Origin: Planctomycetaceae bacterium
GTDB lineage: Bacteria; Planctomycetota; Planctomycetia; Planctomycetales; Planctomycetaceae
DNA: 64,000 bases
NCBI GenBank assembly: GCA_029243145.1
Contig: JAQWSQ010000077.1
Coordinates: 1-64,000, forward strand
Direction: 5' to 3'
How positions within the stretch are numbered: the first letter of the stretch is position 1; every line of letters begins with the position of its first letter. The position numbers and the translations under genes are program-made. Shown in pieces: positions 1-20,649 of the stretch. The notes below the pieces were generated by a model, which saw only the letters and a program-made list of their open reading frames with translations, was not told where the DNA came from and searched no databases.

Positions 1-896
1 ACGGTGAGTGTTCCCGTGGTCATCAAACCCGCGTTGGTTTCGTCGAGGCTGGCGGTGTCGTCTCCGTTGGTGATGACGGGATCATCGTTGGTCCCGTTGA
101 TGGTGATGGTGACGGTGGCGTCAGCCATTGCGTTTTGTGAATCGACTGCTTGAATCGTGTAGGAGTCGTTGTCGGTCTCTCCGAATGCCAAAGAATCAAA
201 CACGTTTCCCGGGTTGTAGGTTAACGAACCATCAATGTTCAGAGTGACGGTGACGCCATCTCCCAGATCGACAGCACTTCCGCCGGGTGTCAATGCCATA
301 CCATTAATCGAATAAATCAACGTGCTATCATCGACATCGCTGAACAGGTTCGAGATGTTTAGATCGCTGTTGACCTCGTTCTCGCTGATTGTCTGCATCT
401 GGTCGGTGCCGACAGGAGGATCATTCAAACCGACAATAGTCAGGTTGACCGTTGCGATGGCGGTTCCCCCATTGCCGTCAGAAATGGTGTAGTCGAACGA
501 ATCCACAGCGGGCGGGTCGGTCACTGCCAAATTGTCAAAGGCGGTTCCGGGATCATAATCCAGTGTTCCGTCCATATTGAGACTAACGGTCGCACCGGAA
601 GTGAGCGCGATGGTATTGCCGTTCATCGGGTCGAACGCTGTACCGTTAATTTCGATCACCGACAGCATATCCAAATCGGGGTCTGAATCATTACTCAGAA
701 CATTGATATTGACTGACGTGTCTTCGTCCGTCATTGCCATATCATCCATGGCGACCGGCGCAGCAAGGACGATTCGATCTTCCAATCTCTCTGTGAGCAG
801 GAGAGGGGAGTTTTCTGGGTTGTGTTGAGTGGTGCTGGGATTGAGCCAAAACCTGGAAAAATCATTAAGTCGTTTTTGCCAGTAAATCCGTCTCAT
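1..896 (-). CDS. Giant cadherin/VCBS-like protein with LEDR-type N-terminus (partial)
   Basis: The frame reads leftward from an ATG at 896, which has an in-frame TAG immediately upstream, and runs off the window, so only the first ~298 residues are seen. The N-terminus is basic and aromatic (MRRIYWQKRLNDFSRFW) and is followed by LLLTERLEDRIVLAAP. That resembles the LEPR-XLL type N-terminal motif of giant planctomycete surface proteins. No ordinary hydrophobic signal peptide is visible. After this come at least two ~100-residue repeats with cadherin/VCBS hallmarks: DEDTSVNINVLSNDSDPD, GTLDYDPGTAFDNL, YTISDGNGGTA, and NGTNDDPVI as the linker. These folds usually bind calcium and serve in adhesion. 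The gene is divergent from the SecA-like/HlyD cluster, which makes it a candidate export substrate. The repeat family is clear. The export route is inference. Confidence 0.85.
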   Translation of the reverse strand, partial: MRRIYWQKRLNDFSRFWLNPSTTQHNPENSPLLLTERLEDRIVLAAPVAMDDMAMTDEDTSVNINVLSNDSDPDLDMLSVIEINGTAFDPMNGNTIALTSGATVSLNMDGTLDYDPGTAFDNLAVTDPPAVDSFDYTISDGNGGTAIATVNLTIVGLNDPPVGTDQMQTISENEVNSDLNISNLFSDVDDSTLIYSINGMALTPGGSAVDLGDGVTVTLNIDGSLTYNPGNVFDSLAFGETDNDSYTIQAVDSQNAMADATVTITINGTNDDPVITNGDDTASLDETNAGLMTTGTLT

Positions 897-1384
897 GATC
901 TAACACTTCGCAGAGGGTTTGCGGACGTTGACAAGTCAACGACCGATGGGCAAGGAAGAACACTGGTGAGAATGGTCAAAAGGAGACTCAGAGCACTTAT
1001 AGTCAAGTATCGTCAAGGAGCGGTTTCTCTGTCAAATCCAAATTATACCGGCAAGGTGTTTTGCGGGAAGTGCTTACGGAATATCCGGTTGAATGAATTC
1101 CGTGTTTTCTGGCAAAGAACAGTCATAAAACATGGGGATTGGTCTAATTATGCAAGTTATGAGTATTGTAGCAAAAACACAACCGGGAAAAGGAGTGACG
1201 TATAGACTGTCTGGACTCCAAAGGTGAAGAAAACAACAGCAAAAACCGAATGAAAAGAAAGAGCTTGGACCTGTTTTGATCAAGCAACCGTTTTGCTGTG
1301 CGCATCAATTGGATAAGTTATAAATATCACCCCATTTGCGACTCACAAATTACCGACCTCTCGTCCGTTCCCGGTAGATGTCAG
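897..1384. other. Divergent intergenic region
   Basis: This 488-base spacer lies between the leftward cadherin-like gene and the rightward secreted-protein gene, so it should carry both promoters. The only structure I could name is the dyad at 926-941. Open frames inside it have no recognisable features, and I take them as chance. Confidence 0.5.
926..941. promoter_or_regulatory. 16-bp dyad upstream of the giant-protein gene
   Basis: The sequence CGTTGACAAGTCAACG is a perfect inverted repeat apart from the central AA. It lies 30-45 bases upstream of the start at 896, which is where an operator would be expected. No regulator is identified, so function is inference. Confidence 0.3.
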
Positions 1385-1993
1385 ATGATGAATTTTCAAA
1401 TCATCTTTTGCGGCATGAGCCTGTGGCTGTCTCTGGCTAATTTCAGCCTAGGTCAGGAATCACAAGAGGCTCTCAAATCACTTCCTCCACTTCCAATACC
1501 GGTTGAGGAAGAGGTGGATTTAGTGCCCGGACAGCAGGCAGAGCTGGAATCACTGACAGGGGAAGAACTTCAACAAATCTTTCAACCCGTCAATCTGGGT
1601 TTGAAAGGACCGACTCAATTCAAGATTCGTATTCGTCCGCATGTTTATCTTGATGAGGAAGACCCGAGCCGTGGTTTGATTGAGCCACCTCCGATGCAGG
1701 CCGATGTTTTCGATACTGAGACAGAGCCCATGTCTTTACAGCAGTTTACAGGTAACGGTGTTGAGTCTCCATTTTTCACACCGGTTTCGCCGTTCTGCTA
1801 TCCTCCTTTGTATTTTGAGGAGCCGTATCTGGAGCGATATGGGGATGGGTATTGTGATCCCTTACAAACGCTGATTTCTGGAGCACATTTTTATGCTCGA
1901 ATTCCCATGCTCTCCATTAATCTCATCAAACGGCCCCCGTGTCGACCGGTTTTGAATCTTTGGGCTGATCCTGTGGATGAAGCCAGACGGTAA
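1385..1993 (+). CDS. Small secreted protein, planctomycete type
   Basis: This encodes about 202 residues. I chose the ATG at 1385 because it begins a signal peptide (MMNFQIIFCGMSLWLSLANFSLG). An in-frame GTG at 1298 would add a polar stretch with no obvious role. The mature protein is acidic and Pro-rich at first (SLPPLPIPVEEEVDLVPG). It later carries a conserved-looking aromatic block, FCYPPLYFEEPYLERYG, and ends NLWADPVDEARR. I have a general impression that PLYFEE-LERYG blocks recur in secreted planctomycete proteins, but I cannot assign a function. It lies 78 bases upstream of the SecA-like gene on the same strand, so co-transcription is likely. That would make it a possible accessory of the export cluster. 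Confidence 0.6.
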   Translation: MMNFQIIFCGMSLWLSLANFSLGQESQEALKSLPPLPIPVEEEVDLVPGQQAELESLTGEELQQIFQPVNLGLKGPTQFKIRIRPHVYLDEEDPSRGLIEPPPMQADVFDTETEPMSLQQFTGNGVESPFFTPVSPFCYPPLYFEEPYLERYGDGYCDPLQTLISGAHFYARIPMLSINLIKRPPCRPVLNLWADPVDEARR

Positions 1994-2071
1994 TTCCAGG
2001 CGTTTGTTGGCCAGACCGGCGGGACAGAAAGACCTTGCGACCGTCTCGGCAATGGTCTCTGATAAAGCTCT

Positions 2072-3991
2072 ATGTTTGATTCTCTGACCTCAAGCTGGAT
2101 CACGAAACGACGATTAGGTCGCTATCGGCGTCTGATTAAGACTGTGCATAAGATCCAGGCTGGATTTCTCTCATGGAGTGATGAGGAATTACGAGCCGAG
2201 CGATTGTCTCTCAGTTTGCAGGCACGCTCTGGGGTTCAAAGAGAGAAGTTCCTTCCTCGCAGCTTCGCTTTGATCCGCGAGAGTGCGCGTCGAACGGTGA
2301 GCATGGAGCATTATGATGCTCAACTGCTCGGAGGTTGTGCGCTGGCCGAGGGATACATCGCCGAGATGGCCACCGGCGAAGGGAAAACATTCACTGCCAC
2401 ACTTCCTCTCTTTTTGTATTCACTCTTTGGACGCGGTGCTCATCTGGTGACCGCCAATGATTATCTTGCGGAACGCGATGCCGAGTGGGTTCGGCCAATC
2501 TTTGAGTTGCTGGGTGTGCAGGTCGGTTCGATCCTCCAGCAATCGAGCGATGCAGAACGTGCATTGGCTTATCAAGCGGACATCACTTACGGAACATTGC
2601 GTGAATTCACGTTTTATTTTTTACGGGAACAGTTGAGTCGTTCGCAGATCGATCACTCTCGTTCGAGTAATGATGATCGTGCGAGAAATCGCATTTCACC
2701 GGAGCGACGATTTCCCAGTGATCCCCCTTTCTTCTTGCTTGTTGATGAAGCGGACAGCTTGCTCATCGACGAAGCACGGACCCCTTTAATTATTAGTCTT
2801 CCGAGTGAGCATGATCCGACGTTTGGTGAGGACTGTTTTTTCTGGGCCAATCACATCGCCAGCAAGCTCGCATTATCGTCTGATTACGAGTTGGATCCAA
2901 AGGCTCGATCTGTGCGATTGAATCAAGCGGGAAAACAGAGCGTGAGAGAAAAATTGTCTCTCACACAATTGAGGAACCTCACTTTGCAAGAGGCGGAAGA
3001 GGCGGTTTGTCGTGCGCTTGTGGCTCAAAAGTATTTTTGTAGAGACGAACACTACGTGATTGACGACGATGAAGTTCAGTTGATTGATAGTTTCACGGGA
3101 CGAATTGCCGTTGGTCGAAAGTTGCGTCAAGGCGTTCATCAAGCGATTGAAGTTCGAGAAGGATTGCCTTTGACGAAGACTCAGGAACCTGCCGCACGAA
3201 TGACCGTGAATGATTACACGTCTCGATACCATCATCTCGCGGGAATGACGGGTACGGCGAGTGAAGTCTCGACCGCGATGAAAAAATATTATGACTGTCG
3301 CGTGTTGCCCATTCCCACCATTCGCCCCTGTCGGCGCGACATTCTTTCCGTGCAAATATTCGAGACCACTCAAGAAAAATATTGTGCCATCGCTGCCGAA
3401 ATTCTTGTCCTGATCGAGGAAGGCAGGTCTGTTTTAATCGGGACACGCACGATTCAACACTCCCTGTCTCTCTCCGAACATTTGAACAATTCGGGGATTG
3501 AGCATTTGCTTCTCAACGGGGTTCAGGATGTCAACGAGGCCGATATTATTTCGCAAACCGGTCAACCGTCTCGCGTCACAGTGGCGACCAATATGGCAGG
3601 ACGTGGGACCGATATTCATTTGTCGGATCAGGTTCGCGAGGCGGGCGGGTTACACGTCATCGGCACCGAGTTTCACGAGTCCGCGCGGATTGATCGACAA
3701 TTAGCCGGGCGTGCTGCACGGCAAGGCGATCCGGGAAGTTTCCGACAAATGGCGAGTTTCGAAGATTCGATCCTGATCGACGCTTGGGGAGAAGAGGTGG
3801 CTACGAAGCTCACACAAGATGCCCGCAAGGGTTTTCGGGTGAGTTACGCGGCTTCATTATTTCGGCAAGCACAACAGGACTTAGAACGCAGACAACGCCA
3901 CCAACTTCTCTTAATGCTCGAAAGCGAACGAAGACGGAGCGTGCAAAACATAGAGATGGGACGCGACCCTTGGCTGGATAGCGTTTATTGA
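2072..3991 (+). CDS. SecA-like preprotein translocase ATPase, shortened paralogue
   Basis: This encodes 639 residues with clear SecA architecture. The N-terminal nucleotide-binding fold has Walker A MATGEGKT (residues 99-106). A DEAD-type Walker B (LLVDEADSLLIDEARTPLI) lies near residue 223. AGMTGTA follows, then the second ATPase fold with VATNMAGRGTDIHLS and GRAARQGDPGSF. Canonical SecA is usually 800-950 residues. This one ends soon after the second ATPase fold with a short helical tail, and it lacks the long helical wing and the C-terminal Cys-rich SecB/lipid-binding motif. It is therefore probably a dedicated SecA paralogue, not the housekeeping motor. Its last bases overlap the convergent TolC-like gene by 7. 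I see no SecY partner. The ATPase family is certain, and the role in exporting neighbouring proteins is inference. Confidence 0.9.
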   Translation: MFDSLTSSWITKRRLGRYRRLIKTVHKIQAGFLSWSDEELRAERLSLSLQARSGVQREKFLPRSFALIRESARRTVSMEHYDAQLLGGCALAEGYIAEMATGEGKTFTATLPLFLYSLFGRGAHLVTANDYLAERDAEWVRPIFELLGVQVGSILQQSSDAERALAYQADITYGTLREFTFYFLREQLSRSQIDHSRSSNDDRARNRISPERRFPSDPPFFLLVDEADSLLIDEARTPLIISLPSEHDPTFGEDCFFWANHIASKLALSSDYELDPKARSVRLNQAGKQSVREKLSLTQLRNLTLQEAEEAVCRALVAQKYFCRDEHYVIDDDEVQLIDSFTGRIAVGRKLRQGVHQAIEVREGLPLTKTQEPAARMTVNDYTSRYHHLAGMTGTASEVSTAMKKYYDCRVLPIPTIRPCRRDILSVQIFETTQEKYCAIAAEILVLIEEGRSVLIGTRTIQHSLSLSEHLNNSGIEHLLLNGVQDVNEADIISQTGQPSRVTVATNMAGRGTDIHLSDQVREAGGLHVIGTEFHESARIDRQLAGRAARQGDPGSFRQMASFEDSILIDAWGEEVATKLTQDARKGFRVSYAASLFRQAQQDLERRQRHQLLLMLESERRRSVQNIEMGRDPWLDSVY

Positions 3992-6366
3992 CCCAACTCG
4001 TAATTCCACTCATACCAGGGAGCCGATGGCTGCGAGGGAGCGGGTGTTTGCTTGACTTGTGGAGGTGCCTTGGGGGACTCAGGAACTTCCGTTTCTGGTT
4101 GATCATCAATAAACTGAATCTCTTTTCCCAGTTCGGCAGCCTTCGACATGTTTTGCTGAGTGAGTGGGGTTTTCAAGTTTGGTGCGAGTGCTTGGATTTT
4201 AGGACTGTGTGAGACGCGTAGAATCTTAAGGTGAGCGTCCTCCTCGGTCTCATCCAGTGGGAAAGGTCGAGGGGCATTCGAGGTTGTTTCTGGCAGTGGA
4301 GGCAAATTATCAACTTTGCGAGGCACTGAAACAGGAACCGTCGGTTCTGATGGGAACGGATTCTCGAAGGTGCTGGTTGTCTCGCCGGGAACATCGTTTG
4401 TGACAGGTTCAATCGCGACCGACATTTCCCCTTGAGGCTCTATGTCCAAAGGAGATGTCGCCGGAAGCGGTACTTGCGGTTCGACTTCTCCGATACTGAT
4501 TGCTCTTGATGGATCTCCGTTCCAATGGGATTCACCTACAGTCGAATAGTTGTCCGTCAAAATCACATGGCGAAACGGGAGTAAACTTCCCTTTTCAAAG
4601 TGAATGTTCCGTAGTGCGGCTTCATGCTCGACCAATGATCGATAGTAGCTCGCTTTTGCATCGGCGAGTCGCGATTGAGCATCCAGAATTTCGTCAGGCG
4701 AATCGGTATCTTCATTGAGTGATGAGAAACGTTGTTGGGCAGAAATGAGACGGTTAAAACTGATTTTGTTCAGTTCTTGTGCTCGCTCCAATTCGGCCAC
4801 CGCGTTACTCAAATCATGAGCAATTTGACGTTCTTGTTGTCGTAACAACGCTCGTTCGCGAGCAATCTGAATCTCAAGATTGGTGACGGCAGCATGGCCT
4901 TGGCGAGTCCCAATAGGCACGGTCATTTCGACGCCCAACTCCCACTCTTGGAAATCGCCACCAAACAAGTTTTCGGTGGCTCCCCGATTTAGCGTGGTCG
5001 CTCCTGTGGCTGTGTCGCCGATGAGGTTATCACCAAATCCACGGAATCGATATCTGCCGAACATATCGAGACGTGGCTTTTTGAATTGCTGACTCGCTTC
5101 TTTCTGTAACTCCAGACTTTTCAATGCTTGTCGCTGTTTTTTCAATTCGGGACGCTGGGCGATTGCCTCGTGGATCAACGCATTCCAGTCGTATTCAATC
5201 GGCATGACTTTGGGTTCCGAGACAGGTCGAATAACCGATTCTTCTTTCATTGGCAAGCCCATCAAGAGTCGCAAGCGACGCTCGGCAACATACAGCCCTC
5301 CCGCTCCGGTAAACGTACCGGGACGGCTTCCATTACCGGTCTGAGTGGCGTTTTGCTGCCGTCCTGCCAACGCATTATACATGTCTTCTTCAAATCGATA
5401 ATACTGTTCACGAGCTTGCGCTTCTTTCGCAGCCGTGATTCCCTTTTGATCGATTCGCGAGATGGTTGATTTCCATGTCTTCAAGCTTTGATCGCGAGCA
5501 GCGAGTGAAGTATCGAGTAAGCGATAGGCGTAGAAAAGATCCCAATAGGCATTTTCGACATTGCTGATGAAGTCTCGCATACCAATTTCAAATTCCGAAA
5601 TCGCCATGTCGGTATTGATACGAGCGATGACAATCCCTTCGATGACTCCTGGGCGTCCATAAGGGCCTGCGATTCGATTGAATTTTGTTCCCGCACCTTG
5701 CATCAAGGGTTGTCGAACTTCCATTTCCACTTGGGTTCCCCACGAGTTGGGATATAAGTTTTGTGCCCGATTATTGTCATCGTAATCCACAATGCTTCGC
5801 GCGGAGAATTGAGTACCTGTTGCCGTCTTCTTGGAAAGCTCTAGCAGGTAATCGTGAGCGTCCTGCTGGAAGAGTTGTGTTCCTCCACCCACGAAGAAGT
5901 TGTTGAAGGGACGATCATTATTCTGGAACATGGCATTTGATCGCAGTCGAGCATCAAACTGACTTAATGCTGCCTCGACGCCCAATTGAGGGTCGGTTTC
6001 TGTCACTGCGCGGTCATAAACTGTATCGATCGTTGCCGGGGATGAGAGGACGGTACCTCCCAGATCGTGAAGAATGGTGGCATTTTGCAAAGCAATCTGA
6101 AGAGCCTCTTCTAAAGTGAGGTCCAGATAATCTTCGGGAAGTTCTCGACGAACGGTCCAAGGTTCTTGAGTCTGCACACTACTGGGATTCAGGTGTTCGT
6201 ATTTCTCAGCAGTATGGCTGGTGTACGACTCTTCCCACTTTAACTGCTGATACCCGGGTTCTTGGTCGGAAACTTTTTTCTTATGCAATAGGCGACTGTG
6301 ACAGCCAAGATTGAGAAATCCGGGCAGGATCAGCAATATTATGATGTAAACGGACCGGAAATTCAT
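3985..6366 (-). CDS. TolC-family outer membrane channel lipoprotein
   Basis: This encodes about 793 residues. I chose the ATG at 6366, which gives a lipoprotein signal ending in the lipobox LNLGC with Cys22. A TTG at 6381 is a possible alternative. The middle of the protein has the two repeats of the outer membrane factor family: long amphipathic helices with LTLEEALQIALQNA and AELERAQELNKISFNRLISAQQRF. The family forms trimeric channels through outer membrane and periplasm that dock onto HlyD-type adaptors. A C-terminal tail of roughly 200 residues is rich in Pro, Glu and Thr and probably disordered, which is unusual for TolC. The gene faces away from the GAF-HlyD gene across 262 bases and overlaps the SecA-like gene end to end. 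Confidence 0.85.
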   Translation of the reverse strand: MNFRSVYIIILLILPGFLNLGCHSRLLHKKKVSDQEPGYQQLKWEESYTSHTAEKYEHLNPSSVQTQEPWTVRRELPEDYLDLTLEEALQIALQNATILHDLGGTVLSSPATIDTVYDRAVTETDPQLGVEAALSQFDARLRSNAMFQNNDRPFNNFFVGGGTQLFQQDAHDYLLELSKKTATGTQFSARSIVDYDDNNRAQNLYPNSWGTQVEMEVRQPLMQGAGTKFNRIAGPYGRPGVIEGIVIARINTDMAISEFEIGMRDFISNVENAYWDLFYAYRLLDTSLAARDQSLKTWKSTISRIDQKGITAAKEAQAREQYYRFEEDMYNALAGRQQNATQTGNGSRPGTFTGAGGLYVAERRLRLLMGLPMKEESVIRPVSEPKVMPIEYDWNALIHEAIAQRPELKKQRQALKSLELQKEASQQFKKPRLDMFGRYRFRGFGDNLIGDTATGATTLNRGATENLFGGDFQEWELGVEMTVPIGTRQGHAAVTNLEIQIARERALLRQQERQIAHDLSNAVAELERAQELNKISFNRLISAQQRFSSLNEDTDSPDEILDAQSRLADAKASYYRSLVEHEAALRNIHFEKGSLLPFRHVILTDNYSTVGESHWNGDPSRAISIGEVEPQVPLPATSPLDIEPQGEMSVAIEPVTNDVPGETTSTFENPFPSEPTVPVSVPRKVDNLPPLPETTSNAPRPFPLDETEEDAHLKILRVSHSPKIQALAPNLKTPLTQQNMSKAAELGKEIQFIDDQPETEVPESPKAPPQVKQTPAPSQPSAPWYEWNYELGQ

Positions 6367-6628
6367 GGAATAGACAGTCAATTTCCACTAACAATAGATA
6401 TGTACAAAGTTCCCAGGGGCAGCACTGTTGATTAGATCGTCCTATTTGGAGTCAAATCTTTCGTTAAATTCCGCAGAACAGTGAAAACCCTTATTGATTA
6501 CCTAAATTAACACTCGATGATTTGACCTCGAATTCCGCGATTTTTACCACTTCATGGGGTTGAATTTGCTACATTTCAAGGCGTTTTCTCCTTCTCCTTC
6601 GGCTTAAATTCAGGCGGTTACAGCGAAG

Positions 6629-8641
6629 ATGGCTTCTTCCTCCGAGTTTACGGCCTCTCCAGATGGGTCAATAAATCCGCTGAATTTTGAAGATCGCATC
6701 CTGACTTTGGCGGAATTGCTCAAAAGCCAAGTCGATGTGACGACTTTTGAAAAAGCAATTCTCAAACATGCATTGGATGGATTTCATGCTCGTGGGGGAC
6801 TGATTTGGAAGCCGGTCCGCCAGAGCGATGAAAACTCGCTGGTTTTGCAGACGCAAGAGGGACAACTCCTACCGCAAACACATTTCGAGGGATTGGAGAC
6901 CGTTCGTCATGCAATGATCGAGTCTGGGGAACACAAAGTCGTTTATTTGAGCAGTTTGACTTCCGCGGAGCCGGTCTCTCCCACGACATCCGAATCACCT
7001 GGTAAGGTGATGTTGAAACCGTTAGTCATCGACGACCAAACTGTCGCTCTGTTGGAAATTCATCAACCGAGTGAACCGGAGATGGAATCGGGAGAAGCAT
7101 TTCTGGCTATGTTGGCGGAGTTGTATGGGGAATGTCTCAAGCATCAAAAACTCCAACAATTAGAAGATGAAAACCAACAGTGGCATCGGTTCGAAGAGTA
7201 TGCTTGCACATTACAAAAATTCTGGGATCCTTCAGATGTCTACGCTCACGTCATCGACGCGGGTCGTGAGCTTTGCGGCTTTGACCGGTTGACTCTCCTG
7301 CTTGGTTCAGGAAAACAGTGTCGAGTTCGGTTGGTCTCCACCACTGATGACCCGTCTCGACATTCTTTAACGATCCAAAAATTGCAAGACTTATCTAGGT
7401 TGTTGACGAGTGCCGACCAAGAGCTGCGTTATGACGGAGAGGTGGAACAAATTCTCGCCCCTCTCGTCCAGGAGAATCTGAGTCAAGTTCTCGATGCGAC
7501 TCATGCTCGAGTATTTTATGCCATTCCACTCAGGTCGGTCGATACTGACCAATCAACCGGGCAAAACGCTGTTACGGGAATGTTGGTGGCGGAAAATTTT
7601 CGGGGTGACCTTGAAGCCTCCGCTTTTTCCCGTTTCCAAAGAGTTGCCGAGCTATCGGCTCCCGCAATCGTGCGTGCGGCCTATTGGGAAAACTTACCCG
7701 GAAGATGGTTTCTTCATGCCTGGCTTTCGCTGATTCGGACGCCATTTCAACCGAAGCGCACGGCTTGGCGATGGGCGCTCTTCGCGGTTTTATTTGTGGT
7801 GTTTCTGCTGGTCTTTGTGCCGGCAAAGTTTCGAGTCAAATCGACCGGGCAACTCCAAGCCGTCGATCAACACCATGTTTTCGCCCCCGTGAAAGCCTTC
7901 GTGATTGATGTTCATTTTCAGGACGACCAACCCATCGTGGTCGATCAACGTCTGCTGACGCTCGATGATCTCGACTTGAAACTGAAACTTGAGGAAGTTC
8001 GTGGAGAACTCGAACGCGTAGGGACTCGGCTGACGAACATTCAAACGTTGCGATCTCAGATGATTCGAAACAGTTCGGATTCGACGGAAGCCGATGAACT
8101 TGCCGCCGAAGCCAATGAACTCAGCATCAAAAAAGTGTCGTTGACCGCCCAATGGGATATTCTGAAAACGAAAGAGAGCCAACTGGAAATTCTGTCTCCC
8201 ATCTCGGGAACATTACTGACATGGAATCCTCAAGAGCTACTTAGTTCGCGACCTGTGGACGCGGGGCAAATTTTGCTGACGCTGGCCGATGTGGAGGGAG
8301 ACTGGCAATTAGAAGTGAAGATACCCGAGGAGGAGATGGGGCATATCCGTCAGGCACTCAGTGAGAACTCCGATCAACTTGTGATTGACTATTCCCCGGA
8401 TGCTCAAGTGGGCCAGATCTTTCAGGCGACTCTCGTGGAAGATCAGATTGCGCGACGCTCTGAAATTGATCCAGACATGTTACATTATTTTCGAGCGACT
8501 GTTGCGGTTTCCGTCCAAGACAATTATGCCCCCGTCTCGGGGGCCGGCGTCACCGTTCGCATCGATTGCGGTTCTCGGGCATTAGGGTATGTTTTGTTTC
8601 ACGATCTGTATGAATGGACTCAGAAAAATCTGTTGTTCTGA
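6629..8641 (+). CDS. GAF-domain / HlyD membrane-fusion protein
   Basis: This encodes 670 residues in two halves. The first ~350 residues look cytoplasmic. Residues about 187-345 resemble a GAF domain (YACTLQKFWDPSDVYAHVIDAGRELCGFDRLTLLL and MLVAENFRGDLEASAF), and an earlier region (40-170) may be a second degenerate one. One transmembrane helix spans about 381-398. The rest is a periplasmic adaptor with a lipoyl-like hairpin (VKSTGQLQAVDQHHVFAPVK and ISGTLLTWNP), a coiled coil (about 450-510) and a beta-barrel. HlyD proteins bridge an inner-membrane machine to TolC. Fusion to a GAF sensor suggests the bridge responds to a cytoplasmic ligand, which is inference. It is first in a three-gene run of adaptors. 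Confidence 0.8.
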   Translation: MASSSEFTASPDGSINPLNFEDRILTLAELLKSQVDVTTFEKAILKHALDGFHARGGLIWKPVRQSDENSLVLQTQEGQLLPQTHFEGLETVRHAMIESGEHKVVYLSSLTSAEPVSPTTSESPGKVMLKPLVIDDQTVALLEIHQPSEPEMESGEAFLAMLAELYGECLKHQKLQQLEDENQQWHRFEEYACTLQKFWDPSDVYAHVIDAGRELCGFDRLTLLLGSGKQCRVRLVSTTDDPSRHSLTIQKLQDLSRLLTSADQELRYDGEVEQILAPLVQENLSQVLDATHARVFYAIPLRSVDTDQSTGQNAVTGMLVAENFRGDLEASAFSRFQRVAELSAPAIVRAAYWENLPGRWFLHAWLSLIRTPFQPKRTAWRWALFAVLFVVFLLVFVPAKFRVKSTGQLQAVDQHHVFAPVKAFVIDVHFQDDQPIVVDQRLLTLDDLDLKLKLEEVRGELERVGTRLTNIQTLRSQMIRNSSDSTEADELAAEANELSIKKVSLTAQWDILKTKESQLEILSPISGTLLTWNPQELLSSRPVDAGQILLTLADVEGDWQLEVKIPEEEMGHIRQALSENSDQLVIDYSPDAQVGQIFQATLVEDQIARRSEIDPDMLHYFRATVAVSVQDNYAPVSGAGVTVRIDCGSRALGYVLFHDLYEWTQKNLLF

Positions 8642-8669
8642 TTTGTTTCTCCCTCAGGCGAGAGGATTC

Positions 8670-9548
8670 ATGAAAGCATTAGTTATTGTTGGGTGTTTCT
8701 TACTGTTGACGATGCAAGTTGGGTTAGCAGAGTCGCAGTCGATCCCTGTCAAATTTGTGCAAGTCACATTATTAGATGAAGCCGATTTAGCGGCTCCCGA
8801 ATCGGGACGCTGTTTCGAACTGCTGGTCAAAGAAGGTCAGCTTATTGATCGGGGGGCTTTGCTGGTACGCTTGGATGACACCCAAGAAAGCATTGAGGTG
8901 ACCCACGCCACCAAAGAATTGGAAATCGCCCGATTGAAGTCGACGAATAAAATCGATGTCGAGATTGCGCAAAAAGCCGAAGGTGCGGCCAAATCGAAAT
9001 TGAAGCGAAAAGAAGACTCACGGGCGAAATATCCGAAAAGTATCCCTGAAGAGGAAATTGAAGAACTTAGATTTCTCGCACAAAAGACGGCCTCCGAAAT
9101 CGCCAAAGCCAAGTTCGATTTGGAACTCGCTCAGCACGAAGCAGAACTGGCCGCAAACGCGCTGCTGTCTGCCAAAGATAAATTAGATCGTCGCCAGGTT
9201 CGATCTCCCATCAACGGGATGGTGGTCGAAGTCGATGTCAATGAAGGGGAGTGGGTCGAAACCGGACGAAAGTTGGTCAGAGTGGTTCGTCTTGATCGCC
9301 TGCGTGTGGCGGGATTTGTTCCGTTAAAATATCTGCCAGACGAATTGATCGGTCAGGATGCCGAGTTAACATTGATTCGTGAAGGCCGCGAAAATGTCAG
9401 TCTGACGGTTCAAATCGGGTTTGTCAGTCCTGAAGCGAATCCCGTCTCGGGTGAACGACGCATTTGGGTTGAGATCGATAACTCCAAGGGAACGCTCTTT
9501 CCCGGCATGACTGCCAAGTTAGAAATCAATGCTGCCAAGAAACCTTAA
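8670..9548 (+). CDS. HlyD/RND-type periplasmic adaptor
   Basis: This encodes about 292 residues. The ATG at 8670 is preferred over an upstream in-frame start at 8589 because it follows GAGAGGA and opens a signal peptide (MKALVIVGCFLLLTMQVGLA). The mature protein has a split lipoyl domain (ELLVKEGQLIDRGALLVRLD and RSPINGMVVEVDVNEGEWV) around a charged coiled coil of about 100 residues. A beta-barrel and membrane-proximal segment follow, ending GTLFPGMTAKLEI. The layout matches membrane-fusion proteins of tripartite pumps. It starts 29 bases after the GAF-HlyD gene and ends 19 bases before the protease gene, so the three are almost surely one operon. Confidence 0.85.
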   Translation: MKALVIVGCFLLLTMQVGLAESQSIPVKFVQVTLLDEADLAAPESGRCFELLVKEGQLIDRGALLVRLDDTQESIEVTHATKELEIARLKSTNKIDVEIAQKAEGAAKSKLKRKEDSRAKYPKSIPEEEIEELRFLAQKTASEIAKAKFDLELAQHEAELAANALLSAKDKLDRRQVRSPINGMVVEVDVNEGEWVETGRKLVRVVRLDRLRVAGFVPLKYLPDELIGQDAELTLIREGRENVSLTVQIGFVSPEANPVSGERRIWVEIDNSKGTLFPGMTAKLEINAAKKP

Positions 9549-9566
9549 CACATTCTCAGGAGGGAC

Positions 9567-11774
9567 ATGTTGACTGAATCATCCGCAACACGTCCGCTTC
9601 GCCTGCGCCTTCGTCCAGATTTGGAGATTCGTGATTCGAGTTCTTCGGCTGAGAAAATCTGGATCATTCGCGATCCCGTCACGCTCAGATATTTTCGCTT
9701 AAACCGAGAGGAGCATGAGCTTCTCAATGGACTGGATGGCTCCAGAAGTCTCGTCGATATTCAAAGGCATTACAACGCCTTATTCAGCCCGCTGCATCTT
9801 GAAATGCAGCAATTGATGGCGTTCCTCTCACGACTTTATGCCGAGGGGTTACTTGTCTCGGACGCTCCCGCTCAAGCGATTCCTTTGCAAATACGTCGCA
9901 AAAAGAACCGGTTTCATCGCTCACTCGCACTGTGGTCAAATCCTTTGGCGATCCGAGGTCCGGGAGTCTCTCCCGGACCAATTCTGGATAGAGTGACAGC
10001 CTGTTTGGGCGGGCTCTTCACCTTCGCAGGCTTCTTGCTTTCATTGATTCTGTTTTCAACGGCTCTCTCGCTGGTGATCACCCATCGAGAGTCGGTCAAC
10101 GCCCGGCTCCCTCAGATGCAGTCGTTTTTCGAAGGTAAGAACTTCTTGTTGCTGCTCGCAGTTCTTGCCATTGTGAAAGTGTTTCACGAATTGGGGCATG
10201 CGGCATCCTGCCGAAAATTTGGAGGACGTTGCCATCAAATCGGAGTGATGTTTTTGATGTGTGTGCCGACGCTCTTTTGCGACGTGTCTGATGCCTGGTT
10301 GATTCCCCAGAGAATGAAACGCGTCATTATATCAGCGGCGGGCATGTATGTGGAAATGATTTTGGCGTCGGTGGCTACAATCTTGTGGTGGAATAGTTCT
10401 CCGGGAATCTTCAACGCCGTCTGCTTGAATGTGATGCTGGTTTGCTCCATCTCAACGGTGTTGATCAACGGGAATCCGTTTCTTCGCTATGATGGTTACT
10501 ACATTCTCTCTGACTTGGTTAATATTCCCAACCTCAAGCAGCGTTCATCGAGTTGGTGGAAAATGACTTTGAAGTCGGTTTGTCTGGGTCTCAAGTCATC
10601 TCGCCAAGAATTACCATCGTCCAAACGGCATACTTTTTTGTTTTGTGTTTACGGTTTCGCTTCCACGGTATTTCGGTTGTGTTTGCTGACGATGATTTTG
10701 TGGTTTGTGTATCAATTTCTGGAGCAACACAAACTGGCTGTGTTTTTCCCGCCGTTATTGCTCATTGTACTTTCAGGCACTTTGGGTCCACCTCTCAAAA
10801 GAACCGGTCAATTGCTGAGTGATCCACTCGCCCGCGCTCAAATGAGACCGTTTCGGATGGCGTCTACGATTTTCGGTGGTTTGTTGCTCGCTCTGTTTTG
10901 TGGCTTCGTACCGTTGCCGACTTATGTCTATTGCCCCGCGCTCATCGAGCCGTACGAAGCTCAACATGTCTACGCTTACTATCCAGGACGATTGAAGTCA
11001 TCCATTGCTGAGAACTCTACGGTGTCTTCGGGAGATTTAATCTATGAGCTGGAAAATGACACATTAGAATACGAGTTGGAAGAACTCAGCGGTCAACTTG
11101 AAGTCCAAAAAACACACCTGCGAAGCCTCGAGCAAAGAAGCTCAGAGTCTGTTGAAATTCAAAACCAAATCCCGCTCGCTCAAAAATTCCTCAAAGATCT
11201 CCAACAGCAATACCAACAACGATTGGATCAGAAATCGCAATTAACGGGTTTCGCTTCTATGGATGGCATCGTTTATCCACCACCGATTTCACATCAACCC
11301 AGCGAGACCAGTTTAGAACTCTCTTACTACACCGGCTCGCCTTTCAATCCTCAAAATTCAGGATGTCAGATCGAAGCGGGGACATTACTCTGCACGATCG
11401 GTCTTCCTGAAAAGATGCAGGCCACCCTGCTGGCCGACGAACAAACTTTGCAATTGATCAAACAGGGTCAACAGGCTTCATTGCTACCGACGGCAAGTAC
11501 ATTGGGCGTGATTGATGGTCACGTCAGCGCGATTGGACGCACTCGACAGGAAACAGTCCCCGATCAATTTCTTCCCGATGAAAGTATTGTGATTGTGCCG
11601 AGAGTTGATGGGACCAGTGCGCCGGTCAATCCACTCTGGGAAGTTCGCGTTCGGTGGACTGAGTCAACGCAAGACCTCCCTCCGGGAATGCGCGGCACAG
11701 CCCGCATTCGGGTCGATTCGATGACGCTACTGACACGTTTTCGTCGCTGGGTGAACGCAACGTTTCGTACTTGA
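9567..11774 (+). CDS. PqqD-like / M50 zinc protease / HlyD fusion
   Basis: This encodes 735 residues after a strong AGGAGGG site. Residues about 15-98 look like a PqqD domain (WIIRDPVTLRYFRLNREEHE and LLNGLDGSRSLVDIQRHYN), a fold known to bind peptides. Residues about 145-400 form a site-2-protease-like M50 membrane domain with zinc motif HELGH at 207-211 and a second metal motif NPFLRYDGYY at 303-312. After further transmembrane helices comes a HlyD-like region with lipoyl half-motifs, a coiled coil (ELEELSGQLEVQKTHLRSLE) and a barrel. Similar proteins are often labelled 'peptide zinc metalloprotease' in genomes. The arrangement suggests a protease that reads a peptide signal and is tied to an export channel. 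The domains are seen, and the role is inference. Confidence 0.85.
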   Translation: MLTESSATRPLRLRLRPDLEIRDSSSSAEKIWIIRDPVTLRYFRLNREEHELLNGLDGSRSLVDIQRHYNALFSPLHLEMQQLMAFLSRLYAEGLLVSDAPAQAIPLQIRRKKNRFHRSLALWSNPLAIRGPGVSPGPILDRVTACLGGLFTFAGFLLSLILFSTALSLVITHRESVNARLPQMQSFFEGKNFLLLLAVLAIVKVFHELGHAASCRKFGGRCHQIGVMFLMCVPTLFCDVSDAWLIPQRMKRVIISAAGMYVEMILASVATILWWNSSPGIFNAVCLNVMLVCSISTVLINGNPFLRYDGYYILSDLVNIPNLKQRSSSWWKMTLKSVCLGLKSSRQELPSSKRHTFLFCVYGFASTVFRLCLLTMILWFVYQFLEQHKLAVFFPPLLLIVLSGTLGPPLKRTGQLLSDPLARAQMRPFRMASTIFGGLLLALFCGFVPLPTYVYCPALIEPYEAQHVYAYYPGRLKSSIAENSTVSSGDLIYELENDTLEYELEELSGQLEVQKTHLRSLEQRSSESVEIQNQIPLAQKFLKDLQQQYQQRLDQKSQLTGFASMDGIVYPPPISHQPSETSLELSYYTGSPFNPQNSGCQIEAGTLLCTIGLPEKMQATLLADEQTLQLIKQGQQASLLPTASTLGVIDGHVSAIGRTRQETVPDQFLPDESIVIVPRVDGTSAPVNPLWEVRVRWTESTQDLPPGMRGTARIRVDSMTLLTRFRRWVNATFRT

Positions 11775-11970
11775 TTGTCGAAGGTAGTTTGGCACTCTAT
11801 ATCAACATGTAGACTTGTAGGGCAGCCTCCCGTCTGCCTTCCTCATCTGTGGAAATCGGCAAAATCGCTTGCTTGCAGCCATAACCCAAAATAGCGACTG
11901 ATGACGAACAGCAATCCACGAACTCAACCTGGCATTTCCGCTGATTGGTTCGGGCGCTGTTTTGATTTTG
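11775..11970. other. Intergenic region with first REP-like repeat
   Basis: This spacer follows the PqqD/M50/HlyD gene. It holds the REP-like element at 11817. Nothing else was recognised. Confidence 0.4.
11817..11841 (+). repeat. REP-like element, GTAGGGCAG family, copy 1
   Basis: A GTAGGGCAG head runs into an imperfect palindrome (GGCAG, CTCCC, CTGCC) followed by TTCCTC. The similarity to the copy at 12341 extends about 30 bases further (TGTGGA, ATCGG, ATCG), so these are direct repeats of roughly 55 bases. The GTAG head plus hairpin is the defining layout of REP sequences. Confidence 0.65.
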
Positions 11971-12084
11971 TTACGTGCTCTTGTTCTTTTTCTCCTGCTT
12001 CAGTCTTTTCTTCTCTTTAGGGGTTCGTTGAGCCTTTTTCTGTTCTTCTTTTTTGCCTTTATCTTTACTTCCCTTATCGCCCAT
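11971..12084 (-). CDS. 37-residue lysine-rich small protein
   Basis: A short frame from ATG at 12084 to TAA at 11971 encodes MGDKGSKDKGKKEEQKK and continues with AQRTPKEKKRLKQEKKNKST. About 40 percent of the residues are lysine, there is no hydrophobic segment, and a GGGAGA ribosome-binding site sits 8 bases upstream. I recognise the MGDKGSKDKGK opening as that of small conserved basic proteins found in various bacteria, with no function I can name. It could bind nucleic acid. It lies alone between two REP-like repeats. Opposite-strand open frames over this region are shadows. Confidence 0.6.
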   Translation of the reverse strand: MGDKGSKDKGKKEEQKKAQRTPKEKKRLKQEKKNKST

Positions 12085-12512
12085 CGCTGTGTCTCCCTGA
12101 ATGGAATGAAATTCTCTGTTCTGCCAATGAGTGTTGTCGCTCTCGTCAAGTGGTTAAGCCATCCACGACACGAACGCGACACTCAAAGCGAGACGCAAGC
12201 AGTGCTTCTCGCTTTGAGTCGAAAGCATGGCAACCTCTCTTCAGATCGAGTATTAGGTTGCACAACCATATTATGGATGTACAGTTATTGTATCTGGAAA
12301 AAACTTTCTAAAACAGCGCAAACTCATTTATTAGGACTTGTAGGGCTCCCGCCTGCCTTCCTCTTGTGTGGAGATCGGGAAGATCGAATCTGCTCTCCAT
12401 CAAATTCATCAACTCGGAAGAGATCTTTCCCTGCCAGCCTCTTGCAACCATGCGCAGAGTCACCAACAATAAAACAAGACATCGACAATCAAATGCCTTG
12501 AATGGAACCACT
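12085..12512. other. Intergenic region with second REP-like repeat
   Basis: This is the spacer upstream of the sulfatase gene. It holds the REP-like element at 12341 and probably the promoters of both flanking genes. I see no other gene. Confidence 0.4.
12341..12362 (+). repeat. REP-like element, GTAGGGC family, copy 2
   Basis: GTAGGGCTCCCGCCTGCC followed by TTCCTC. Compared with the fuller copy at 59037 it lacks about four bases of the left arm, so the hairpin is damaged. Confidence 0.55.
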
Positions 12513-13979
12513 ATGCGAATTTCCTACTTGTCCTTCTTGCTGGTTGTACTTTCAGGAACGAATTTGATTTTGAGTTCCGCGGAAGCTCGTCAGCCGAACA
12601 TCATCTTTATTATGGCCGATGATTTGGGATACCACGAACTCGGTTGCTACGGTCAAAAGTGGATCAAGACACCCAACATTGATCGCATTGCGGCAGAAGG
12701 GATGAAGTTTACGCAGTTCTATTCGGGAGAAGCCGTTTGTGCTCCGGCAAGATGTGTGTTGCTCACCGGAAAACATACCGGGCATTCGTATGTTCGCAAT
12801 AATGGTGACCCGAAACATCTGCAACATTTGGCCCCTAAATACGGTTGGGAGTTTCCCGGTCAATACCCGATCCCCGATGAAGAAGTCACGGTTGCCGAAC
12901 TGTTGAAGGAAGAGGGGTACGCGACGGCTGCGTGTGGTAAATGGGGGTTGGGTCACGTTGGCACCAGCGGAGATCCCAACAAGCAGGGGTTCGATCTATT
13001 TTACGGATTCAATTGTCAGCGGCATGCTCACAATCATTATCCCAAATTCTTATGGCGGAACGACAAAAAAGAAATCTTGCCGGGTAACGACCGCACCCTC
13101 AACGGCGAAACCTATTCTCAAGACAAGTTTACCGAAGTCGCGTTGGAGTTCATTAAAGAGAACAAAGAGAAGCCTTTCTTTTTATATCTCCCCTTTGCGA
13201 TTCCCCATCTCTCCATTCAGGTGACGGAGGAATCTCTCAATGAATACAAAGGGAAGATTCCCGAAGAGGAATATGTTCACAAAGGGTATCTCGAACATCC
13301 GTTTCCTAGAGCCGGTTACGCGGCGATGGTCACGCACATGGATCGCGACGTGGGTAAAGTGATGACGTTAGTCGAGAAGCTGGGGCTCGATGACAATACC
13401 ATCATTTTTTTCACCTCCGATAATGGACCCACATACGACCGACTTGGTGGTTCGGATTCCGACTTCTTCGCATCGGCGGGTCAGTTCAAAGGCTTGAAAG
13501 GTTCGCTGTATGAAGGCGGTATTCGAGTCCCTTTGGTGGCACGTTGGCCGGGAAAAATCGTACCGGGAACGATCAGTCACCATCGGTCGGCGTTTTGGGA
13601 TGTAATGCCAACCTTGACTGATATCGCGGGAGCAGACGCTCCCGTCGGTATCGATGGTCTTTCGTTCGCTCCCACTTTGTTAGGTAAGCCCGATCAACAA
13701 AAGCAGCATGCTTATCTTTATTGGGAATTTGCCGCGTATGGCGGTCAGCAGGCTGTGAGAATCGGGAATTGGAAGGGCATTCGCCAGAACATGTTCAAAG
13801 GGAGCCTCCATACGGAACTGTATGATCTCTCAATAGACATCGGAGAATCAAAAGATGTCTCGGCTCAAAATCCCGAAGTGGTCAAGCAGATTGAACACAT
13901 CATGGCCACGGCTCGGGTTCCTTCCGAGACCTACAAGTTCAAAGCACTCGATGAGTGGCAGGCAAAAGTTGCGAAGTAA
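12513..13979 (+). CDS. Secreted sulfatase
   Basis: This encodes 488 residues. The ATG at 12513 starts a signal peptide ([20 protein letters not shown], cleaved near AEA). The longer upstream frame is polar and has no support. Sulfatase hallmarks are [20 protein letters not shown] with metal-binding Asp residues and the formylglycine motif C-A-P-A-R at 76-80. GKWGLGH and TSDNGPT follow later. The motif has Ala in place of the usual Ser before Arg. Cys remains the residue oxidised to formylglycine, which requires a maturase not seen here. The likely role is hydrolysis of sulfate esters on algal or animal polysaccharides in the periplasm. The exact substrate is unknown. Confidence 0.9.
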
Positions 13980-14394: not shown

Positions 14395-14801
14395 CCGATC
14401 CCAAAAAACTCTCAAACGAGGAATGGCGTGAAAAACTAACTCCCGAGCAATATGCGGTCTTACGCGAACAAGGGACCGAACGACCTTATACGGGTGAGTA
14501 CGATCAGCATTATGATTCGGGGACTTATTCATGTGCCGCCTGCGGCATGGAGTTGTTCGAGTCGGAAACCAAGTTCAACTCACGTTGCGGTTGGCCAGCT
14601 TTTTACGCAGCACAAGCGGAGGACCGGGTCAATCTGCACAGCGACACAACGCTCGGCATGGTGCGGACGGAAGTGACTTGTGCGGGTTGCGACTCTCACT
14701 TGGGGCATATTTTTGATGATGCCCCGCAAACACCAACCGGACAGCGATACTGTATCAATTCGGTCTGTCTGAATTTTACCTCTCACGCAGACAATGCTTA
14801 G
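14391..14801 (+). CDS. msrB: Peptide-methionine (R)-S-oxide reductase
   Basis: This encodes 136 residues, full length for MsrB. It reduces the R-form of methionine sulfoxide in proteins, using thioredoxin as reductant. Four zinc-binding cysteines form two CxxC pairs (C48/C51 and C97/C100). The catalytic cysteine is C121 in RYCINS, and the RCGWPAFY and HLGHIF motifs are present. No signal peptide is seen, so it is probably cytoplasmic. The start overlaps the upstream monooxygenase gene in ATGA. Its TAG stop overlaps the stop of the convergent signal peptidase gene by 4 bases. Confidence 0.95.
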   Translation: MTDPKKLSNEEWREKLTPEQYAVLREQGTERPYTGEYDQHYDSGTYSCAACGMELFESETKFNSRCGWPAFYAAQAEDRVNLHSDTTLGMVRTEVTCAGCDSHLGHIFDDAPQTPTGQRYCINSVCLNFTSHADNA

Positions 14802-16651
14802 CGAATGCGTTCCATGCGCGGGACGTTGGGATAAAACGGAACTCGCATTTTGGGATAGCGTTCGTCACCGGTCTCCCCTCGATGATAGGTAATCGGATAC
14901 CCTTCACCGTCGTTCATGAACGGCATGCCGTGCGGCCAGTAGATGAAGAAGGCTTTACCCAACATGGCATTACGGGGGACGGCATGCGTGTCGTCCCACA
15001 AGCGACTGTCCAGACTGGCAGGGCTGTTGTCACCCAGTACGAAAAATTCGTCATCTTTCAAAGGTGGGAATTCCACAGAATGCTCGTACTTGAGATAGAG
15101 TTCGGCGTACTTTTCAGGTTCATCGAGAGCAAACATTAAATCCATCTGCGAGGTTCGGTCGGGAATGTCGAATTCATCTCCCAGCTCGCGTTGGCGAGAC
15201 ATGCGTTCGTACCGCTCCATTTGCACCCGAATACTTTGCTCGGCTCGATAAAAGATATCTCGTGTCAGTTTCAGATTGGAAACATTCAACTCCGCGTCAG
15301 TGACGGCAATTCCAACCGGTGATAAATCACGATTTGTCGGTAAACTGGTCGCGGGAGCTTCATATTCACCTTTGCCGGGAAACGGAATCAGCTTCCCATC
15401 GATCCACAGGTTTAACCGATTGTCGACATTCGAGAACGTCAGCGTATGGGAGCCAACCCCCGAGAAAGACGTTTCCACTTCATCGAGAACTTTCTGTTGT
15501 TCTAACGCATAATCGAAGTATTCGAGAGTGACCTTGCCTGTTTTCATATTAAATCGACATTGGTAATCGCGAATTCCTTCGGTTAATTCGAGGATCAGTT
15601 CGCCGTTCTCCCCGGTGTCGGTGATATCGATGGAGCAAGACATGGTCAGGTCGCCAACCCAGAAATGTCCACTACTGCTGTGTCGCCGTGCCTGCGTTTC
15701 GTTGTAGCCGCAAAAATCGCTGATTAATTTCGGTGTGGGTTTTGTTTCAAACGGGAGTGCAGGATCATTCATGACCGCGCCCCAAGCTTCTTCATCGGGG
15801 ACAAAGTGCCGGTACTTCAGCCAGCGTGTTTGATCGGCGGACTCATTGCGTGTGATGGCATAGACTCTTTGTTCGGTATCGGCCGACCATCCTCCCGTTT
15901 CGGGTTCTAACCCCGAACCACTGTCGTCGGTATGATCGTGTTTCACAGCCGCCCAACGCTCGGGCCATCCCTTTTCCAGAAGTAACTTTTCAGGATGATT
16001 GTTGTCATGAACAATCATTTGCAGTGAGAGCTGTTTGTAGGGATCGTCTTTCCGCAGAATCTGCCACGCATCGGTTTCGTTTTTTCGGGCATAAACATCT
16101 CCACCCTCGATTAATAAATACTCGTTCGGCAAACCGACCAATCGTTTGATGAAATTGCGCATCGGTTCTTCAGGGTTTTTGAAGACGACAACATCCCAGC
16201 GGTCAGGATCGCTAATCTCGTAAGGAAATTTGTTGACAAGAATTCGGTCGCCATGAAAGACGGGAGTATCGCGAACCGTATTTTCATAACGGCAATTGGG
16301 GCAGACTGAGGTGTTGATACGCGCATTGGGTAGAAGTGATTCGGAGTCCCCGTTAACTTCTTGACTGGCGCCGATGTTGTAATGCCATTGGCATTGTTCG
16401 CAGTCGATCTCTTTATGTCGTCCATTGAGAGTTTCGGCCATCGATCCTGTGGGGATCACGAAGGCTTCCGCTTCAAAGGTGCGAAACAAAAAGGCAAGAA
16501 TGAAAGCGACCACCAACGACTCGATAGTCTCTCGCGCCGGTGAGGGCCTCACGTATTTGCTTTTCGCTTTCGGCTTCGCCGCAACGGGGGTTTTGGCGAG
16601 ATCGGCAGATTGTTTTTTGCGGGTTGATTTGCTCATCCAAGCGGCATTCAT
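14798..16651 (-). CDS. lepB: Signal peptidase I, enlarged (copy A)
   Basis: This encodes 617 residues, against about 200-325 in typical bacteria. A basic N-tail leads to one transmembrane helix (44-60). Next comes the Ser box FVIPTGSMAETL with nucleophile Ser70, then the Lys box FIKRLVGLP with general base Lys169, and near the end the GDNSPASLDSRLW box. Between Ser and Lys are two CxxC pairs (C84/C87, C117/C120), like a zinc ribbon. An insert of roughly 300 residues before the GDN box contains beta-rich LamG/concanavalin-like sequence (HTLTFSNVDNRLNLWIDGKLIP). It cleaves signal peptides on the outer face of the inner membrane. It follows copy B on the same strand. The start could instead be the ATG at 16636. 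Confidence 0.9.
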   Translation of the reverse strand: MNAAWMSKSTRKKQSADLAKTPVAAKPKAKSKYVRPSPARETIESLVVAFILAFLFRTFEAEAFVIPTGSMAETLNGRHKEIDCEQCQWHYNIGASQEVNGDSESLLPNARINTSVCPNCRYENTVRDTPVFHGDRILVNKFPYEISDPDRWDVVVFKNPEEPMRNFIKRLVGLPNEYLLIEGGDVYARKNETDAWQILRKDDPYKQLSLQMIVHDNNHPEKLLLEKGWPERWAAVKHDHTDDSGSGLEPETGGWSADTEQRVYAITRNESADQTRWLKYRHFVPDEEAWGAVMNDPALPFETKPTPKLISDFCGYNETQARRHSSSGHFWVGDLTMSCSIDITDTGENGELILELTEGIRDYQCRFNMKTGKVTLEYFDYALEQQKVLDEVETSFSGVGSHTLTFSNVDNRLNLWIDGKLIPFPGKGEYEAPATSLPTNRDLSPVGIAVTDAELNVSNLKLTRDIFYRAEQSIRVQMERYERMSRQRELGDEFDIPDRTSQMDLMFALDEPEKYAELYLKYEHSVEFPPLKDDEFFVLGDNSPASLDSRLWDDTHAVPRNAMLGKAFFIYWPHGMPFMNDGEGYPITYHRGETGDERYPKMRVPFYPNVPRMERIR

Positions 16652-18380: not shown

Positions 18381-18406
18381 CCATGTTCCGACATGAAACG
18401 TGAGAA

Positions 18407-20209: not shown

Positions 20210-20649
20210 AGAGGATCGAAGTTCGTTTCGTAAGCGTAAGTGGGAATCATTCAGTTCTTCTATTCTAGAATAGATTGATCGATTTCGTAACCTCGCGAGG
20301 GGCTGTGATTTCTCCTTTCCGACAGGGAAATTCTGGATTTCGTCAAAAAAAAACTCACCATTCGCCATCATAAAATGAGCGGATTAAGACGGTTTGGGCG
20401 GCATTTGACATGAATCCGTGACGATTGTGTGGTTTGGAAGCCCCCTGCAATCGTTAACTCGCATCCCTCTTTCCTGATCGGCTGACTTTGCGAGATCGAC
20501 ACAAATCGAATTCTCTCAAAACATTCCAGCCTGTCTGAGTAAGAGTGATAAAGTTGAGTGAGCTTCACACGAGGAAGCTGCGTAGATTTTGTTGTCAGAG
20601 CCGCAAATGGATTGACGGTTCGAACAACACTTTTTGAAGGTAACCGATC
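20210..20649. other. Divergent intergenic region
   Basis: This 440-base spacer lies between lepA and the rightward lipoprotein gene. No conserved element was recognised, and promoters for both genes are expected here. Confidence 0.4.

Follow-up and report, generated by a model that had tools for sequence, protein, structure and literature searches.

An ABC-Free SecA/M50/HlyD Locus as a Candidate Exporter of LExR-Leader Surface Proteins in Planctomycetota and Proteobacteria

Gene Content of the Locus

The stretch of DNA analyzed here (the window) spans positions 1-64000 of contig C140, the start of that contig, in the genome (G000) of a Planctomycetaceae bacterium, and its first 11,774 nucleotides encode a candidate secretion system built from a short SecA, an M50 protease fused to an HlyD adaptor, two further HlyD-type proteins, and a TolC-family protein. 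The initial annotation of the bare sequence had described these five genes as clustered without an ABC transporter or RND pump. Open reading frame (ORF) listings together with Pfam and NCBIfam scans confirm all five machinery genes within 1-11774, and none of the eight Pfam-scanned proteins of 1-13979 contains an ABC transporter or RND pump domain. The short SecA ("secondary SecA_DEAD," 639 aa; 2072..3991, plus strand) was identified by both scans and by alignment. It is followed on the opposite strand by the gene for the TolC-family outer-membrane lipoprotein (3985..6381, minus strand), recognized by its Pfam OEP match (7.1e-19), two OEP stretches, and an LGC lipobox. The remaining three genes form a close-packed row on the plus strand: a GAF-HlyD protein (6629..8641; Pfam and homologue alignment A4), in which a single transmembrane helix (aa 383-401) separates a cytoplasmic GAF part from a periplasmic adaptor part; a periplasmic HlyD/RND-type adaptor with a Sec signal (~8664..9548; RND_mfp, 111 bits, above the cut-off), for which the listed ORF start is 8589 and the likely start 8664; and the RRE(PqqD-like)-M50-HlyD fusion (735 aa; 9567..11774), assigned by Pfam, NCBIfam, and profile and structure comparison. 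A canonical SecA is encoded separately, elsewhere in the genome.

Leader and Putative Substrate

At the very edge of the contig lies the 5' end of the gene for a surface protein with cadherin/Big_9 repeats (3..896, minus strand; Pfam Big_9 and Cadherin_4), the proposed substrate. It had been described initially as a giant protein facing the cluster, with an LEDRIVLAA N-terminus and no classical signal peptide; the last two features are borne out, while the size cannot be read: the contig breaks off at window position 1, leaving 298 aa visible. The export leader motif LEDRIVLAA (residues 38-46; 759..785, minus strand) is of the LExRxLL type and follows a basic N-terminal stretch, with a net charge of +3 before the motif, on a protein of extracellular type. 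This leader has no hydrophobic core (peak Kyte-Doolittle [KD] value of 1.4, vs. 2.8 in the real signal peptides of the window); in the leaders generally, a stretch of net positive charge precedes the LExR motif, and a Sec-type core is likewise absent.

The window leader matches our leader profile A3, whose 21 rows include the window sequence itself, with E=2.1e-6 and 30.5 bits. It scores 11.5 bits against PF07595, under the 25.5-bit cut-off, and the NCBIfam scan found no match to NF012209 (LEPR-XLL) in the window. As a genome-wide leader detector, PF07595 was rejected as too weak, since it matched only 23 of 294 genomes, the window's own not among them; A3 was therefore used instead, and its training bias was checked by removing training genomes. 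By this profile, the 5.2 Mb of the window genome contain one real leader protein, which adjoins the genome's one cluster; the other four A3 matches are weak and lie in frames of 44-82 aa. An orthologue of the cadherin-type protein adjoins the same cluster in a second genome of the genus (G002, locus L063).

Conservation and Co-occurrence in Planctomycetota

To place the locus in context, 40 loci of at most 20 kb each were collected around short SecAs or companion genes and scanned with iterative hidden Markov models; three of these loci are orthologous and some hold lone SecAs. The short SecA adjoins M50-HlyD and/or GAF-HlyD, HlyD, and TolC in most of the 40, across many families. Leader ORFs occur in 14 of the 40 cluster loci, against 1 of 40 random 20-kb stretches drawn from those genomes (p=3e-4); with a looser leader motif, the counts are 15/40 and 3/40. 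As judged from these sequence comparisons, the gene arrangement is far beyond chance.

The association extends to whole genomes. Among 46 genomes of the window's family (45 genera), with leaders counted at E<0.01, a leader is found in 33 of 38 short-SecA-positive genomes vs. 1 of 8 negative ones (p=1e-4; 2e-4 without training genomes). Across 294 Planctomycetota genomes, leaders occur in 30/39 positive and 17/255 negative genomes (p=3.5e-21), and the association persists without the 12 training genomes (p=1e-12) and when counted by family (p=1e-5), this family-level collapse being the only treatment of kinship in the co-occurrence counts. Within the window's genus, G000 and G002 have the short SecA, the M50 fusion, and the leader, and G001 has none of the three. 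The initial annotation had named a lack of co-occurrence between the cluster and leader proteins as an outcome that would overturn it; we find instead that the two are present together and lie close to each other, both in Planctomycetota and, as a separate case, in Proteobacteria.

The RRE-M50-HlyD Fusion

The fusion begins with an RRE/PqqD-like winged-helix domain (aa 1-105; 9567..9881, plus strand), the proposed leader reader, identified by modeling and Foldseek. The Pfam scan missed this domain, and its initial assignment as PqqD is now supported by both its fold and a profile search, which matched PqqD 3g2b (E=0.037) as well as the M50 protease 3b4r (E=0.0086). Modeled alone with AlphaFold2 (predicted local distance difference test [pLDDT] 83), the domain consists of three strands and then three helices. 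Its best six Foldseek matches are lasso-peptide B1 RREs (probability 1.00, TM-score 0.54-0.73, E 0.003-0.02), and all six chains come from entries solved with their leader peptides. On the strength of these models, we lean toward a role for this domain in reading the leader.

An alignment of 21 homologues defines the M50 zinc site HELGH (aa 207-211; 10185..10199, plus strand) and Asp309 of the second M50 motif (10491..10493, plus strand), with H207, E208, H211, and D309 invariant throughout. Trimming of the leader by this site is plausible, at slightly less than even odds. About eight hydrophobic segments are present in the fusion, with HExxH and the Asp of the second motif located in membrane helices. 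In the AlphaFold2 model of the whole protein (pLDDT 80), a small domain at the N-terminus precedes a helical membrane portion and an adaptor. The best Foldseek matches of this HlyD/MFP adaptor domain (aa 450-719; 10914..11723, plus strand) are MacA, Spr0693, EmrA, MexA, and AcrA, at E values of 9e-14 and weaker.

The Short SecA and Its Co-inheritance with M50

By Pfam, the short SecA contains SecA_DEAD, PP_bind, and P-loop domains and no SecA_SW. It keeps nucleotide-binding domains 1 and 2 (NBD1 and NBD2) and PPXD, with intact Walker motifs, and only the start of the scaffold helix. The protein ends at about residue 595 of the 901 of Escherichia coli SecA, or 613 of the 841 of Bacillus subtilis SecA; from the positions of the helical wing, two-helix finger, and C-tail in canonical SecA, all three are therefore missing. 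Its scores fall far under all NCBIfam SecA and SecA2 cut-offs (517 vs. 1085, 451 vs. 930, 403 vs. 725, and 373 vs. 1100 bits for the SecA2 models). Certain genomes encode at least three short SecAs. In public annotation, the short SecAs of loci L230, L237, L244, and L245 appear as "prepilin peptidase," "DEAD/DEAH box helicase," or hypothetical proteins, labels under which a keyword search would miss the system.

The 47 short SecAs all group in one clade, separate from the planctomycete long SecAs and E. coli SecA, and within it the proteobacterial sequences are monophyletic (support 1.0). Over the 29 loci that contain the two genes, the distances of SecA correlate with those of M50 at r=0.93, a value reached by 0 of 2000 permutations, and 19 of 26 splits are common to both trees vs. 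0.25 at random. Since the mirrored trees span the step between phyla, by this phylogenetic measure the short SecA moves and diverges together with the M50 fusion, as one unit.

Proteobacterial Plasmid Loci

A tblastn search of plasmids with the M50 fusion gave a list of 82 records, the top-scoring portion of the matches rather than a random sample, and we inspected 18 loci. The neighbour was readable in 17 of these, and in 16 it is a leader-bearing giant adjoining the M50-HlyD row; no ABC transporter is present in the annotated cluster rows. Eight loci (Alisedimentitalea, Methylosinus, Pseudosulfitobacter, Mesorhizobium, Pseudohalocynthiibacter, Sinorhizobium, Rhizobium WSM1274, and Thalassospira) carry xExR-type leaders ending in (S/A/N)AD, and seven of them have a short SecA in the row, annotated in three cases as prepilin peptidase (two) or helicase (one). 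Another eight (E. coli, Kosakonia, Azospirillum, Variovorax, Tistrella, Burkholderia anthina, Cupriavidus CH34, and Indioceanicola) carry LExRxx(F/Y)D(A/G) leaders, and their M50s, together with that of Phyllobacterium, form one separate clade (support 1.0). Leader type thus tracks the M50 clade perfectly in the 16 loci (8/0 vs. 0/8, p=1.6e-4). Phyllobacterium is the sole exception among the 17, with a neighbour that has no leader, and only there is a type I secretion system (T1SS) nearby. The giants reach 12.9 thousand residues in Pseudosulfitobacter, 10.5 thousand in Mesorhizobium, and 16.2 thousand in Variovorax.

The SecA-less version is found on Enterobacteriaceae plasmids (L229/L234, E. 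coli NZ_CP081687.1; L238, Kosakonia), at loci that adjoin Ig-like proteins of 2-4.5 thousand residues with the leaders LESRQLFDGA and LEPRMLFDGA; 18 Escherichia and 8 Citrobacter records are among the 82 plasmid matches. In several alphaproteobacterial clusters, a small DUF3467 protein is encoded between the giant and the adaptor genes (L239:17600-17896, L230:11636-11956, L244:16685-16990, and L245:7641-7985), which suggests it as a possible extra component of the system.

Proposed Export Mechanism and Alternatives

From the recurrence of this arrangement, we consider it very likely that the leader proteins are substrates of the cluster, and probable that the cluster works as a dedicated, ABC-free exporter of those surface proteins that bear LExR-xLL leaders. 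We propose that the cytoplasmic RRE would bind the basic N-terminus and LExR motif and bring the substrate to the membrane, where the M50 site would cut the leader near its LL(S/A)A stretch. The chain would cross the inner membrane via the M50 membrane domain or SecYEG, then pass through a periplasmic tunnel formed by the three HlyD-type adaptor domains, and leave via TolC. The short SecA, where present, would be a specialised ATPase feeding the chain in; in the SecA-less branch, the housekeeping SecA or another energy source would have to drive export. The GAF domain is a probable regulator.

Several observations weigh against this reading. Among M50 loci in the Genome Taxonomy Database (GTDB), the 80 closest to that of the window all come from Planctomycetota; SecA is within reach in only 8-10 of them and a real leader ORF in about 9. 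Nine of the short-SecA-positive genomes in the 294-genome set lack a detectable leader, while the 17 leader-positive genomes without short SecA have at least one each; the complete genome G311 has leaders and M50 and no short SecA. Among the plasmid loci, the Thalassospira cluster has no short SecA, nor does the row of any of the eight loci with LExRxx(F/Y)D(A/G) leaders. Lone short SecAs, with no M50 or HlyD neighbours, occur at L070, L073, L074, L079, L080, and L089. The parts that engage SecY, the helical wing and two-helix finger, are absent from the short SecA, and only one copy of SecY is present in the window genome, which bears on the inner-membrane pore. The real leader genes of the SecA-negative genomes G220, G177, G224, and G311, on the other hand, still tend to adjoin HlyD or M50.

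In the same 80 loci, GAF-HlyD is kept in 54 and HlyD in 64, far more often than SecA, and the M50-HlyD row is on this basis the core of the system; a requirement that SecA always be present was dropped, given the few SecAs among these loci. The second branch, with DUF4347-type giants and LExRxxFDxA leaders, has no SecA, and the short SecA is therefore, as far as gene content tells, a frequent partner and no obligate motor. The initial proposal that the SecA paralogue takes the place of the ABC motor consequently finds no support as a general rule, since TolC, HlyD, M50, and leader giants occur in a branch whose clusters contain no short SecA, and G311 likewise does without it. Because a whole branch lives without the short SecA and its SecY-engaging parts are missing, the odds that it acts as the direct motor appear evenly balanced. 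A farther-reaching version of the export model is less likely than not: a distinct secretion class for very large surface proteins in which an RRE fused to an intramembrane protease and an adaptor reads the N-terminal LExR leader and a SecA core without its channel-engaging domain pushes the chain directly through an M50-adaptor-TolC conduit bypassing SecYEG, with SecA-driven (LLxAD-type leaders) and SecA-independent (FDxA-type leaders, DUF4347-type giants) lineages.

The alternative that fares best, although we find it doubtful, is two-step export, in which SecYEG and SecA carry the protein across the inner membrane, with the short SecA as a SecA2-like accessory, and M50, HlyD, and TolC only trim the leader and carry the chain across the periplasm and outer membrane. 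The single SecY, the existence of the SecA-less branch, the leaders of G311, and the PPXD and both nucleotide-binding lobes retained by the short SecA would all suit this scheme; however, it must accommodate leaders with no hydrophobic core, a short SecA stripped of its wing and finger, and a cluster with no second SecY. Maturation only, in which the M50 and RRE reader cleave the leader, either as for ribosomally synthesized and post-translationally modified peptides (RiPPs) or as a release step, and the protein is exported by a system encoded elsewhere, type I (ABC) or otherwise, is improbable: the RRE fold and the closest curated profile of the fusion, the daptide M50 protease NF041824 (178 bits, under the cut-off of 300), speak for it, but TolC and three HlyD-type adaptors lie within the conserved unit, the annotated cluster rows have no ABC, and the sole nearby T1SS, in Phyllobacterium, accompanies a leaderless neighbour. 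A small-molecule or metal efflux cluster with a coincidental cadherin-type neighbour, suggested by annotation pipelines that label the adaptors RND/HlyD efflux subunits, is hardly credible and was rejected, as no pump is present and the leader association recurs across two phyla, its genome-level p in Planctomycetota being 1e-12 or lower.

If the dedicated export machine is real, it would explain the export route of some of the largest bacterial proteins, in planctomycetes and many Proteobacteria including Enterobacteriaceae plasmid loci, and an RRE domain, otherwise known from the biosynthesis of small peptides, would direct the export of giant proteins. It would also define precisely which genes to delete in laboratory strains that are open to such tests.

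Neighboring Genes

Between the cadherin-type gene, which it faces, and the short SecA lies ORF231 (231 aa; 1298..1993, plus strand), a possible accessory gene that is conserved in G002 and has no family match in the Pfam or NCBIfam scans. A weak relative (36 bits) is encoded in another genome (L067, at 12361, minus strand), with the M50 fusion on one side and a leader giant on the other, and given this relative, ORF231 may belong to the secretion system. The M50-HlyD fusion is followed by a sulfatase gene (12366..13979) outside the cluster. Farther along, two signal peptidase I (S26) paralogues stand in tandem (14798-16651 and 16737-18410, minus strand) just downstream of lepA (18407-20371); at 617 and 557 aa, both are of unusual length, and the S26 match in each is fragmented.

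Comparison with Known Systems

The PqqD-like domain joined to an intramembrane HExxH protease, and the RRE fold, are shared with daptide/YydH-type M50 proteases and lasso B1 RREs. The present protein differs in its fused HlyD domain and in a putative substrate that in relatives is thousands of residues long, and a daptide RiPP cluster was rejected on the NF041824 score. Accessory Sec systems (SecA2, SecA2/SecY2) likewise use a second SecA ATPase with NBD1, PPXD, and NBD2, whereas the short SecA falls under every NCBIfam SecA2 cut-off, has neither wing nor two-helix finger, and is accompanied by no SecY2; with one SecY in the genome, a SecA2/SecY2 system was also rejected. With Type I secretion (HlyB-HlyD-TolC, including exporters of giant adhesins such as SiiE), the window shares HlyD adaptors and TolC, and the system shares giant Ca-binding or Ig-like substrates. 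It departs from Type I in having no HlyB-type ABC exporter, an N-terminal leader rather than a C-terminal signal, M50 and RRE parts, and three adaptor proteins. A search of a polymorphic-toxin survey (PMC3482391) found no mention of HlyD and a single one of SecA.

The leader itself belongs with a planctomycete surface motif, RRLxxExLExRxLLA (PF07595; Studholme 2004, as cited in PMC8567305), carried by 8 of the 10 longest proteins of Tuwongella (T. immobilis) (PMC8567305). PF07595/NF012209 LEPR-XLL proteins resemble the window protein in the motif, its position, and their nature as large surface proteins; the window motif differs in scoring under the cut-off, and the available text of PMC8567305 names no exporter for the known leader. 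The locus, initially annotated as a candidate non-canonical secretion system, had already been proposed as one by Kamneva, Poudel and Ward in 2015, who noted the missing ABC and suggested that SecA supplies the ATPase and M50 forms the pore (PMC4452313). The window has the features of their locus, of which META1p2399-2402 of Methylorubrum extorquens AM1 is an example: a SecA without SecA_SW, HlyD with M50, GAF-HlyD, and HlyD as neighbours, the OEP protein sometimes present there, and no ABC. In the text available, that paper calls the role of the secondary SecA_DEAD locus "completely unknown" and names no substrate or leader for it, and the one other paper in the searched literature that cites it concerns microbial co-occurrence. 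No paper in that literature joins the leader to the locus; this link is what appears to be new, provisionally so because preprints and most subscription papers lay outside the search. To the 2015 locus the present analysis adds leader giants, the RRE fold, a SecA-less sister branch, and mirrored trees, and it thereby brings together two orphans: the surface leader, described in 2004, had lacked an exporter, and the SecA/HlyD/M50 locus, described in 2015, had lacked a substrate.

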